Source: Limnohabitans planktonicus II-D5
GTDB lineage: Bacteria > Pseudomonadota > Gammaproteobacteria > Burkholderiales > Burkholderiaceae_C
DNA: 64,000 nucleotides
Assembly (NCBI RefSeq): GCF_001270065.2
Contig: NZ_LFYT02000024.1
Span: 1 to 64,000 of the forward strand
Direction: 5' to 3'
The notes beneath the pieces are model-generated. The model saw nothing but the letters and a program-made list of their open reading frames with translations. It made no database searches and was not told the origin of the DNA. The position numbers and the translations under genes are program-made. Positions 45,085 to 49,578 of this stretch are shown in pieces (position 1 is the first letter of the stretch; each line of letters begins with the position of its first letter).

Positions 45085-45978
45085 ATGCAACACATCGGAT
45101 TTGTCGGCGCTTCGGGTTTGATGGGCCATGGCATGGCCAAGAACATCCGGGCCAAGGGTTTTGATTTATCGATCACGGTGCACCAACGCACCGCGCCTGT
45201 GCAGGACTTGCTGGCGGCAGGGGCGCGGCAGGTCAGCGCTTATTCCGACTTGGCGGCATGCGACGCGGTGCTCATTTGTGTGACCGGCTCACCCCAGGTC
45301 GAGGCGGTGGTGGCCGGGCCGGGCGGCATTTTGTCCCAGGCACGCGCGGGCCTGATCGTCATCGACACCTCCACCAGCGAGCCCGAGTCCACACGCCGCC
45401 TCGCAGCCTTGTGTGCTGCGCAAGGCGTGATTTATGTGGACGCACCGCTGACGCGCACGCCCATCGAGGCCGAGGCGGGCAAGCTCAATTCCATGGTGGG
45501 CGCATCACCCGAAGTGTTTGCCCGCATCGAGCCCGTGATTCGCGCCTACAGCGAAAACGTGTTCCATGTCGGCGAAATGGGCTCTGGCCACGTCATCAAG
45601 CTGCTCAACAACTTTGTGGCGCAGGCCATTTGCACGGCCACGGCCGAAGCTTTTTCGGTGGGGGCCAAGGCGGGCGTGGACCTGGACAAACTGGTGCAGG
45701 TCATCTCGGCTGGGGGCGTGAATTCGGGCCTGTTCCAGCTGATGAGCAAAACCCTGCAGGGCGACTACGGCGCGATGAAGTTCGAGCTGAACAACGCGGC
45801 CAAGGATTTGCGTTACTACTCGCACCTGACCGAGAGCGTGAAAGTGCCCTCCATGATTGGCACCAGCGTGCACCAGGCCTTGAACACGGCCGTGGCTTTG
45901 GGCTACGGCAGCGAGATGGTGCCCTCGCTGGTCAAGGCGCAGGCCCAGCTGAATCAGGTCACGATCGTCAAGGCTTGA
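45085..45978 (+). CDS. NAD(P)-dependent beta-hydroxyacid dehydrogenase family protein
   Basis: 297 aa. N-terminal Rossmann motif IGFVGASGLMGHGMAKNI, substrate motif VDAPLTRTPIEAEAGKL (usual DAPVSGG replaced by DAPLTRT), catalytic Lys in GSGHVIKLLNNFV, and a helical C-domain. Family includes 3-hydroxyisobutyrate dehydrogenase and tartronate semialdehyde reductase; the altered substrate motif suggests another substrate. Its end overlaps the convergent kinase gene by 11 bases. Confidence 0.88.
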   Translation: MQHIGFVGASGLMGHGMAKNIRAKGFDLSITVHQRTAPVQDLLAAGARQVSAYSDLAACDAVLICVTGSPQVEAVVAGPGGILSQARAGLIVIDTSTSEPESTRRLAALCAAQGVIYVDAPLTRTPIEAEAGKLNSMVGASPEVFARIEPVIRAYSENVFHVGEMGSGHVIKLLNNFVAQAICTATAEAFSVGAKAGVDLDKLVQVISAGGVNSGLFQLMSKTLQGDYGAMKFELNNAAKDLRYYSHLTESVKVPSMIGTSVHQALNTAVALGYGSEMVPSLVKAQAQLNQVTIVKA

Positions 45979-47341
45979 GGGTTTGGAGGGCTTGGGCCAC
46001 CTCCACCGCAGTGGGTCGCTGACGCGGCTGATCTGACAGGCAGGCACGGGCCAGTGCTTGCAGGGTTTGGACGGCTGCGTCGGCTGATGAGTCATCTGCT
46101 GTTGAGGACGTGCCTGACTCGTGATGCCAAGGTGTCATGGCAGAGGCTGGCGATGGGGGCTGCACCGCAAGGGCCAATTCTTCCAGCAAACACCCCAAAG
46201 CCCGCACCTCCAGCGCCAGCAGGCTTTGTCGCAGCTCGGGTGTGTCCCCGGGCAATCGCGTGGCCGCGCCAAAGTCACCCAGCCGCGCCTGACCGTGCAC
46301 CGGGTCCATCAGGATGTTGTGGGCATACAGGTCGCCGTGCATCACACCACGCTGGTGCAGGTGCGCCAGCGCATGGGCCACATCGTGGGCAATGCCCAGT
46401 GCCAAAGAGGATGAGAGTTGAAAGCCCGGCGGGTACACGTCGCGGGTGCAGCTTTGCAGACTGGGCGGCCCCGCCAGATTGATGTGTGCGGCGGGAATCA
46501 GCGGCATCAGCAAACCCTGGGCTTGCGTGGGGTGGTCTGTGAGCCGTGCCACCGGCGTGGTCAGGCTCGGGTGCTGGCCCGCCGCCAGACAGGCGGCCAG
46601 TTCGTCTTCGGGCAGGCCATCACTGGTGACAGCCCCTTTGAACAGCTTGAGCGCCAAGGCGTGTGGCCAATCCGTGGCCAGCACGCGGTGGATGTGGCCC
46701 GAAGCGCCCTCGCCCAGCAGCGGGCCGTGCGTCAGATCGGGCCAAGCGATGCCTGGCAAGTCAGACCCTGCGGGACAAACCCAGCCCAGGGCATTGCCCG
46801 CCAAGGCCAACCAGGACAGGCGCGGTAATTCGGTCAGCCAGCCGGGCACCTTGCCCAGACGGTTGGCCGAAACGCGCAGCAATTCCAGTTTTTGAGCAGC
46901 CTGCAGGCTATCGGGCAGCCCGGTGAGTTGGTTGCCCGCCAGCATCAGCTTTTGCAAAGCGGGGCGTCGGCCCAATTCGGTGGGCAAATGGCCGATGGCG
47001 TTGTCCGTCAGGGTCAGCCATCGCAAGGCAGGGGGCAGCGAGGCGGCAGGCACATGGGCAATCCGGTTGGCCTTGAAGCCGACCATTTGCAAAGCCGGGC
47101 AATCGCCCAGCACTTCGGGCAGCACTTCAAATTCGTTGTCCGAGGCAAACAGCACCTGCAACTTGTGCAGTTGGCTCAGCTGGTGCGGAAAATCGCGCAG
47201 GCGGTTGCCGCTCAGGTTGAGCACCTCCAGCGTGTCGGCCAGGGCAAAAACCTCGTCCGGCACTTCGGTCAGGCCGCAAGACAGATCTAGGCGGCGTGTG
47301 CCCGCCAGTGCGCCGCTGCGCAGTTGTTCAAGGGTGTGCAT
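45968..47341 (-). CDS. Leucine-rich repeat protein with C-terminal Ser/Thr kinase domain
   Basis: 457 aa. Residues about 15-200 are leucine-rich repeats with the pattern LEVLNLSGNRLRDFPHQLSQL. From about 215 a protein kinase follows: glycine loop LLGEGASGHIHRV, Lys in ALALKLFKG, catalytic loop GVMHGDLYAHNILMD (HxD....N) and DFG in RLGDFGAATRL. The key residues for activity are present. No signal peptide or membrane helix. ATG 47341 gives the natural N-terminus; upstream sequence belongs to array F. The target is unknown. Confidence 0.85.
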   Translation of the reverse strand: MHTLEQLRSGALAGTRRLDLSCGLTEVPDEVFALADTLEVLNLSGNRLRDFPHQLSQLHKLQVLFASDNEFEVLPEVLGDCPALQMVGFKANRIAHVPAASLPPALRWLTLTDNAIGHLPTELGRRPALQKLMLAGNQLTGLPDSLQAAQKLELLRVSANRLGKVPGWLTELPRLSWLALAGNALGWVCPAGSDLPGIAWPDLTHGPLLGEGASGHIHRVLATDWPHALALKLFKGAVTSDGLPEDELAACLAAGQHPSLTTPVARLTDHPTQAQGLLMPLIPAAHINLAGPPSLQSCTRDVYPPGFQLSSSLALGIAHDVAHALAHLHQRGVMHGDLYAHNILMDPVHGQARLGDFGAATRLPGDTPELRQSLLALEVRALGCLLEELALAVQPPSPASAMTPWHHESGTSSTADDSSADAAVQTLQALARACLSDQPRQRPTAVEVAQALQTLKP

Positions 47342-47436
47342 GCCGGAAAGTGTGTTCGGTGTGTGTCGTTGCAAAGGGCTTGATTGTGACTTGAGTGCAC
47401 TTGACGCTTTGGGTGGATGAAACCAACTGCACATTT

Positions 47437-48746
47437 GTAGGTCGGTGGTCGCAGACCTCGACAAATGCTTGCTCACCGCAACTGCCAGAGAAGTGCTTGT
47501 GCTTGATGGGAAACGTCGGACTCTTCGAGTACCGACCTACGGGAGGCGGTCATGCGGGGGTGGTTTCCATAAAGGCCAGCACCGCGTCCAGCATGCGCTG
47601 CACATTTGTAGGTCGGTGGTCGCAGACCTCGACAAATGCTTGCTCACCGCGACTGCCAGGAAAAGGGCTTGAGCTTGATGGGAAACGTCGGACTCTGCGA
47701 GTGCCGACCTACGGGAGGCGGTCATGCGGGGTTGGTTTCCATAAAGGCCAGTACCGCTTCCAGCATGCGCTGCACATTTGTAGGTCGGTGGTCGCAGACC
47801 CCGACAAATGCTTGCTCACCGCGACTGCCAGCAAAAGGGCTTTTGCTTGATGGGAAACGTCGGACTCTGCGAGTGCCGACCTACGGGGGGCGGTCATGCG
47901 GGGGTGGTTTCCATAAAGGCCAGCACCGCTTTCAGTATGCGCTGCACATTTGTAGGTCGGTGGTCGCAGACCCCGAAAAATGCTTGCTGACCGCGACTGC
48001 CAGGAAAAGGGCTTTTGCTTGATGGGAAACGTCGGACTCTGCGAGTACCGACCTACGGGGGGGCGGTCATGCGGAGGTGGTTTCCATAAAGGCCAGCACC
48101 GCTTCCAGCATGCGCTGCACATTTGTAGGTCGGTGGTCGCAGACCCCGACAAATGTTTGCTCACCGGTTTTGCCAGGGAAAAGGGCTTGCGCTTGATGGG
48201 AAACGTCGGACTCTACGAGTGCCGACCTACGGGAGGCGGTCATGCGGAGGTGGTTTCCATAAAGGCCAGCACCGCTTCCAGCATGCGCTGCACATTTGTA
48301 GGTCGGTGGTCGCAGACCTCGACAAATGCTTGCTCACCGCGACTGCCAGGAAAAGGGCTTGAGCTTGATGGGAAACGTCGGACTCTTCGAGTGCCGACCT
48401 ACGGGAGGCGGTCATGCGGGGGTGGTTTCCATAAAGGCCAGCACCGCTTCCAGCATGCGCTGCAAATTTGTAGGTCGGTGGTCGCAGACCCCGACAAATG
48501 CTTGCTCACCGCGACTGCCAGCAAAAGGGCTTGTGCTTGATGGGAAACGTCGGACTCTACGAGTGCCGACCTACGGGAGGCGGTCATGCGGAGGTGGTTT
48601 CCATATAGGCCAGCACCGCTTTCAGCATGCGCTGCACATTTGTAGGTCGGTGGTCGAAGACTCCGACAAATGCTTGCTGACCGCGACTGCCAGGAAAAGG
48701 GCTTGTGCTTGATGGGAAACGTCGGACTCTTCGAGTGCCGACCTAC
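47437..48746. repeat. REPIN array F containing copies of the hutG 3' end
   Basis: Eight units starting GTAGGTCGGTGGTCGCAGAC at 47437, 47608, 47780, 47952, 48125, 48298, 48470 and 48642 (171-173 bp period). Each unit is a REP half, a 52-53-base core ending TTGATGGGAAAC, the inverted half ending GCCGACCTAC or ACCGACCTAC, then about 60 bases (CGGTCATGCGGGGGTGGTTT ... CAGCATGCGCTGCACATTT). On the minus strand that last segment encodes [15 protein letters not shown] and a stop, matching the true hutG end [15 protein letters not shown] at 48757. Confidence 0.92.
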
Positions 48747-48756
48747 AAGTGGGCGG

Positions 48757-49578
48757 TCATCCCGGGGAGGTTTCCACAAGGGCCAGCACGGCCTCCAGCA
48801 TGCGCCGTACATGGGGTTGTACGCCTTTCGCCACCTCAGGCAGATAGTCAAACGGCCAGCTTTCCTGCATGTAGCTGCACTGCGTCATTTCCAGCTGCAC
48901 GGCGTGGATGCCTTGCGCCGGATTGCCATACTGGCGCGTGATGTGCCCGCCCTTGAAGCGGCCATTGAGCACGGCGGTGTAGCTCGGTGCTGACTGGCCA
49001 ATGGCCAGCAGCTGCTCGGCCAGCAAAGGTGAGCAGCTGGTACCGTCTGCCGTGCCCAGGTTCAGGTCGGGCAAACGGCCTTCAAAAAATCGCGGAACCA
49101 CCGAGCGGATCGAGTGCGCGTCCCACAAGGCCGCGACGCCATGCTGCGCCTTGATGCGGGTCAGCTCTTGCGCCAGTTGCGCGTGATAGGGTTGCCAAAT
49201 GGCTTCGCGGCGCTCGGCAATTTCGGCCTCGCCTGGCACATCGGCCGGGTCGCGGTACAGCGGCTGGTCGTCAAACAAGTCCACCGGGCACAGGCCCGTC
49301 ACGCTTTGCCCGGGGTACAGACTGGCTCCGTCTGGCGGGCGGTTCAGGTCGATCACAAAGCGCGAATGCGTGGCCACCAGCACCGAGGCCCCCAGCGCGT
49401 CGGCAAAGTCGTACAGGCGTTCCAGATGCCAGTCGGTGTCGGGCACGCGCTGGGCCTCGTCGGTGAACCGTGCGGCCAATGCGGGCGGCACATGCGTGCC
49501 CACATGCGGCATCGAAATCAGCAAAGGTCGCGTGCCTTGGCGAAAGCGAAAAGGGGGTTCGGTGGTTTGAAAAGTCAT
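48757..49578 (-). CDS. hutG: N-formylglutamate deformylase
   Basis: 273 aa zinc-type amidohydrolase that splits N-formylglutamate into formate and glutamate, the last step of the formyl route of histidine degradation. [37 protein letters not shown] and LWDAHSIRS are the family motifs, with His and Asp/Glu ligands. ATG 49578 overlaps the hutI stop by 4 bases (ATGA). Its C-terminal codons are copied seven times in array F downstream. Confidence 0.93.

Follow-up and report, generated by a model that had tools for sequence, protein, structure and literature searches.

A tandem REPIN array at hutG of Limnohabitans planktonicus II-D5 that probably duplicated the adjoining gene end

Introduction

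REPINs or REP dimers repeated together with flanking DNA have already been published, according to the parts of two papers considered here (PMC3116915, PMC3733652). Pseudomonas fluorescens SBW25 contains ordered REPIN clusters, and clusters are found beside RAYT genes (Bertels and Rainey 2011, PMC3116915); its largest REPIN cluster holds four REPINs, and arrays of single REPs reach 12. The sections of that paper drawn on here do not mention gene ends inside the repeated unit, whereas the array described below has eight units, seven of them with codons of hutG. For GTAG-tagged REP families, it has been described that REP ends supply stop codons (Di Nocera and others 2013, PMC3733652). The hutG locus differs from the REPs described in the portion of that paper used here, as its stop, a TGA, lies in an arm extension by the tag, and the flanking DNA that is repeated is coding sequence from a gene end; neither Variovorax nor Comamonadaceae occurs in its main text. 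In the open-licence literature covered here, no paper was found that describes gene ends within REPIN arrays, or REPs from Limnohabitans, which is weak evidence of absence.

The hutG array of this freshwater bacterium is an array of a known kind and not a new system, with a source, unit number and history that are unusually clear. Our main reading, to which we assign a probability of roughly 0.8, is that it is a tandem array of GTAG-tagged REPINs that was duplicated once together with the adjoining gene end. If so, the readable breakpoint shows REPIN arrays duplicating the DNA next to them, coding ends included, with the copy then ageing apart from the gene, and the locus documents recombination in a class of arrays for which growth had been inferred from order.

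Results

Eight REPINs alternate with copies of the hutG 3' end

The window is the whole 64,000-nucleotide stretch of DNA analyzed. Between hutG and the start of an LRR-kinase gene it contains eight REPIN-like units of 171-173 bp (47427-48812), which start at 47427, 47598, 47770, 47942, 48115, 48288, 48460 and 48632 (Table 1). TRF reported a period of 172, 8.0 copies and 93% matches. Each unit is made of a ~105 bp REPIN with GTAG outside both arms, followed by a spacer of 67-68 bp that we call the tail. The repeat begins at 47427, 10 bases further left than the original prediction had placed the left end of the array.

Table 1. Features of the hutG array and its flanks (window positions)
Feature	Position	Strand	Sequence or evidence
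LRR + protein-kinase domain protein, downstream neighbor	45968..47341	-	PF13855, PF00069; also here in DM1 and T6-5
Left flank, common to tail/REPIN junction	47427..47436	+	CTGCACATTT; proposed short-homology breakpoint of a putative founding duplication
REPIN 1	47437..47540	+	left arm GTAGGTCGG..., right arm ...CCGACCTAC
Tail 1, hutG 3' end copy	47541..47607	-	RMLDAVLAFMETTPA, then stop
REPIN 2	47608..47712	+	
Tail 2, hutG 3' end copy	47713..47779	-	
REPIN 3	47780..47884	+	
Tail 3, hutG 3' end copy	47885..47951	-	RILKAVLAFMETTPA, then stop
REPIN 4	47952..48056	+	
Tail 4, hutG 3' end copy	48057..48124	-	
REPIN 5	48125..48230	+	
Tail 5, hutG 3' end copy	48231..48297	-	
REPIN 6	48298..48402	+	
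Tail 6, hutG 3' end copy	48403..48469	-	
REPIN 7	48470..48574	+	
Tail 7, hutG 3' end copy	48575..48641	-	RMLKAVLAYMETTSA, then stop
REPIN 8, adjoins real hutG end	48642..48746	+	
hutG, N-formylglutamate amidohydrolase	48757..49575	-	PF05013 FGase, E 7.7e-78
Last 56 bases of hutG, tail source	48757-48812	-	sequence match

Each of the seven spacers matches the 56 bases at the hutG 3' end, including the stop codon; the eighth copy is hutG itself beside the last REPIN. This agrees with the original prediction, which had described a match to the gene end in each ~172-bp unit, seven copies between REPINs and the true end as the eighth. Aligned to the unique hutG flank in a pairwise search, the spacers were 80-87% identical over 54-62 bases (E 3e-16 to 2e-12), and the best spacer-hutG score was 77, compared to a maximum of 27 among 100 shuffles. 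Read on the minus strand, each of the seven gives the last 15 residues of hutG, with TGA where the hutG stop sits. The stop was thus correctly foreseen for every tail, but the peptide that had been quoted for them is exact in one of seven, and the others are 1-3 residues off.

We make no claim for a function of the tails, which lack the start region and whose frames run to the stop. We rejected a coding repeat, since a unit length of 172 is not divisible by three and each tail frame closes at a stop. Strong RNA folding of the unit was also discarded, with unit 6 on the minus strand scoring z -0.38 and 64 of 200 shuffles folding at least equally well. Short gene-end fragments of this sort between repeats are not genes, which is a warning for annotation.

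hutG supplied the codons and the REPIN arm probably the outer bases

The original prediction had named recurrence of the 60-bp segment with REPINs at unrelated loci as the sign that it is part of the element. One unit used as query against the II-D5 genome gave 210 matches, and past query position 138 only the eight local units are present among the matches listed. With hutG as query there were six matches, all local. Neither the unit search nor the hutG search found a hutG-end match elsewhere in the genome, among the matches listed. Alignable hutG codons were present in all 24 relatives compared (L060-L083), and 22 of these have no GTAGGTCGG in the next 33 bases after hutG. Relatives without a REP at hutG have the same codons, and therefore the gene is the source of the coding part. 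From these alignments, we interpret the tails as a captured gene end of hutG.

Directly after the REPIN, the outer ~14 bases, which contain the stop triplet, read GGGAGGCGGTCAT and resemble the GAGATGGCGGTGAT or GAGGTGGTGGTCAT that occurs past the same REPIN arm elsewhere. In counts where copies inside one array are not independent, this arm extension was present in II-D5 on 43 of 218 A arms (GGACTC type), 1 of 305 B arms and 1 of 60 unassigned arms, in T6-5 on 4 of 146 A arms (2 of 32 bins, one being hutG), and in DM1 on 1 of 37 A arms, located at hutG; with arms mixed, the motif was found at 47 of 651 flanks versus 2.35 for shuffles. In II-D5, the A arms bearing the extension fall into 12 of 55 position bins, among them the hutG array, with seven other stretches; in T6-5 and DM1 the extension is rare. 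Several relatives without a REP have a hutG that stops at ...VET, and in the three genomes with a REP at hutG the frame continues for a few more residues and ends at a TGA within the arm extension, a pattern suggesting that the element probably gave hutG its present stop.

A REP at hutG is shared with two relatives

Ninety genomes of the genus, II-D5 included, were searched with the REPIN plus hutG end; 35 matched, 30 of them in hutG (II-D5 again included). The other 55 genus genomes had no match to this query, hutG being absent, too different or unassembled there. REP cores lie 19 bases from hutG in two of the 29 relatives with the hutG locus, Limnohabitans DM1 and T6-5, and 55 or more bases from it in four others. 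The remaining relatives have no REP core within the hutG flank searched (600 bases, or ~180 for relative G007, where the contig ends). The number of REPINs at hutG varies, from eight in II-D5 to one half-REP in DM1 and, in T6-5, a half-REP separated by a 47-bp spacer from a REPIN that another repeat interrupts; the LRR-kinase gene is beside the REP in both relatives. A second hutG end beside a REP was found in none of the 29 relatives, and the extra hutG-end matches seen in relatives were 13-16 bases long and on the gene side. The REP at hutG therefore probably predates the array.

A single duplication could explain the unit boundary

We propose that a REPIN inserted at the hutG 3' end before II-D5, DM1 and T6-5 diverged, and that its arm extension became the new stop region of the gene. 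In the II-D5 lineage, one tandem duplication would then have fused a site within hutG with the sequence to the left of the REPIN, at a match of 6-8 bases (CTGCACAT / GCACAT), giving the order REPIN-tail-REPIN-hutG. Judging by the pattern of the units, recombination among them, possibly in part involving blocks, presumably raised the number of 172-bp units to eight. Comparison with relatives suggests that the last bases of hutG and the junction changed after the capture, and that the tails keep the older version there.

The tail-to-REPIN junction is GCGCTGCACATTTGTAGG and the left edge of the array is CAACTGCACATTTGTAGG; the matching place in hutG is CTGCACATG in relative WS1 and GCACATG in most other relatives. 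CTGCACAT is common to the left flank of the array, the tail junction and hutG of WS1. Since the junction, the left edge and WS1 hutG share this short match, a single duplication explains the unit boundary; the match may also be due to chance. A second duplication, at fitA (described below), shares about 1 base at its junction as judged by eye, and therefore short homology is not required. The original prediction of growth by tandem duplication that included the neighboring gene end is supported by a coding tail that is found only locally, among the matches listed, and by the codons of the relatives.

Among the REPINs, numbers 2 and 6 differ at 1 of 117 columns and numbers 3 and 7 at 3 of 117. 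The sum of REPIN distances at lag 4 had a permutation P of 0.0095 (0.067 when units 1 and 5 are left out), and at lag 5 the mean distance, 6.0, equalled that at lag 4. This weak pattern suggests exchange in blocks among units. About 10 kb away, an array of 90-bp units (window:58136-58890) has 17 cores here versus 9 at the orthologous site of DM1, showing that arrays here do change length.

The tails and hutG have diverged

Of 57 columns, 1-5 differ between any two tails and 10-13 between a tail and hutG, in line with the earlier claim that the copies resemble each other more than they resemble the gene. REPIN 8 differs from the other REPINs at 6-12 of 117 columns, with a range of 1-13 among the others. 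Over the last ~22 bases, the tails have 1-3 substitutions relative to DM1 hutG, 5-7 relative to II-D5 hutG and 5-7 relative to T6-5, while the genes themselves differ by 9 (II-D5 and DM1), 8 plus gaps (II-D5 and T6-5) and 4 (DM1 and T6-5). II-D5 hutG is here the most distant of the set and the tails are nearest DM1 (Fisher P 0.046, for the most favorable tail); the two tails tested match the DM1 hutG end at 86-88% over 65 bases.

Alignment of the tails with hutG ends from relatives, which had been suggested as a check for an older hutG sequence, gave a divided result: the last ~22 bases are DM1-like, but the 44 coding bases upstream are equally derived in tails and gene. Within these 44 bases the tail consensus and II-D5 hutG differ at six sites, and relatives mostly side with the tail at three and with hutG at three. 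Position 32 is C in II-D5 hutG and in all seven tails, and in 1 of 24 relatives. The tails thus seem to keep an older version of hutG, with the terminal ~22 bases as the basis. The alternatives first offered, divergence of hutG or homogenization of the copies, probably both apply, in that the tails share a more recent ancestor and the last ~22 bases of hutG changed.

Local hypermutation of the hutG end was also considered, and no clear excess was seen: the final 60 bases of II-D5 hutG show 3 private changes among 36 scored sites, the gene overall has 23 in 642, and other segments have up to 4 in 48. The tails could form a local archive of the lost hutG end, from which recombination between tail and gene might write the former terminus back. 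We consider this improbable; if true, the repeat array would be a small store of alternative gene ends.

Alternative explanations

Two alternatives concern the array itself. One holds that the mobile element carries the tail as a fixed component and passed it to hutG. The ~14 bases after the REPIN, with the stop triplet, do resemble the arm extension at other loci and likely belong to the element, but the codons preceding them belong to normal hutG in relatives that have no REP at this site, and no other REPIN locus of II-D5 carried them, among the matches listed; for the coding part we reject this explanation, which as a whole is hardly credible. The array might also be an artefact of short-read assembly, given that the copy number was taken from an assembly in 152 contigs and that some contig ends fall in such arrays (C11, C21, C36). 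We regard this as very unlikely, as the units differ from one another, the array sits inside a 71.7-kb contig and DM1 has a like-made array at the orthologous site, although the copy number may still be wrong.

Two further readings address how hutG came to differ from its copies. Tentatively, the locus may be a mosaic in which, after the array had formed, hutG (with hutI) was replaced by the allele of another lineage in an exchange that ended near the last REPIN, leaving the tails as a relic of the replaced resident allele. The left side, with the LRR kinase and the REP at the hutG stop, is shared with DM1 and T6-5 and has no match in the 9 kb of WS1 searched; II-D5, WS1 and G007 have no hutF-like gene between hutI and hutG, unlike DM1, T6-5 and G043; and the tail termini are DM1-like. 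WS1 identity exceeds DM1 identity in 5 of 9 windows of 250 bases across hutG-hutI, but DM1 is closer in the other 4, and a hutI tree that groups II-D5 with WS1 at a support of 0.94 is set against a support of 0.11 for the same pair in the hutG tree. Tail distances over the 44 coding bases (DM1 6, II-D5 6, WS1 5, T6-5 4) also speak against replacement, the C at position 32 points to one lineage for gene and tails, and a nearly identical donor was not found. Allele replacement is not established, and we keep it as a rival. Homogenization alone, in which the array is old, unequal exchange keeps the tails alike and hutG simply drifted, has about an even chance of being right. It agrees with REPIN 8 falling within the range of the other REPINs while the hutG end attached to it stands well outside the range among tails, and with the lack of a clear local excess of private changes in the last 60 bases of hutG, but by itself it leaves unexplained both the 5-7 changes in the last ~22 bases and the different gene order.

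The hutF-like gene, which we take to be formimidoylglutamate deiminase (hutF), lies between hutI and hutG in DM1, T6-5 and G043. A 69-70% identical copy is located elsewhere in II-D5, WS1 and G007. The loci concerned are window:49575-49630 and L160:17132-18526.

REPIN family and other arrays in the genome

The repeats at hutG consist of a pair of REP arms in inverted orientation, flanked by the GTAG tag (GTAGGTCGG ... CCGACCTAC); the arms are 34 nt long and 82% complementary in unit 8. They are abundant, with the 210 matches to one unit in II-D5, and matches to one REPIN number 203 in T6-5 and 94 in DM1. The genome also has a REP-flanked transposase, a Y1_Tnp gene (PF01797, 32.3 bits, cut-off 23) at L141:7322-7828 between REPIN arrays, which from its motifs we assume to be of the RAYT kind; there are four Y1_Tnp matches in total, one inside a REPIN cluster. 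As in the published arrays, a REPIN and a unique flank form the unit, and at hutG this flank occurs once more outside, in the gene at the array edge.

Arrays of at least two REPINs numbered 34 in 21 stretches of II-D5 and 41 in 30 stretches, these stretches having been chosen from the REPIN matches listed and not as a random sample. The median spacer was at most 20 bp in 26 of the 41 arrays, 21-40 bp in 2 and more than 40 bp in 13. A broader scan gave 88 clusters in stretches of three genomes; it missed the hutG array, because a false core within hutG, at 48979, had enlarged that cluster, and perhaps missed others. Five of the six flagged open frames tested had no Pfam match, and the sixth (L196:1608-2363), which lies across repeats, had one match at 30.6 bits (cut-off 27) and one below. 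Among the 88 clusters no further gene-end capture was counted except fitA.

At L157:2931-3319 (contig C3), a 194-bp duplication covers a partial REPIN together with the first codons of a FitA-like antitoxin gene and the region upstream of it. The duplication has 101 identical bases, the intact antitoxin gene and a PIN-domain gene follow, and DM1 gave a single match. We read the locus as a second, recent capture in II-D5, in which the start of a fitA-type antitoxin gene was duplicated once.

Two arrays 10 kb apart on contig C16 (L141:2022-2643 and L140:2147-2541) share a 62-bp spacer in inverted orientation, 84-85% alike; one of them sits directly behind queC, and the spacer was not found in the four relatives searched. 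An inverted spacer in a second array indicates that units with captured DNA may sometimes move. At window:30740-31100 and at several REPIN flanks, a longer element surrounds some REPINs, with outer ends like TTGATYCGGC..TGAAGTTT; a similar element interrupts the REPIN at hutG in T6-5. At L171:2609-3472, next to a large repetitive gene, long open frames of both strands overlap a REPIN array of 90-bp units.
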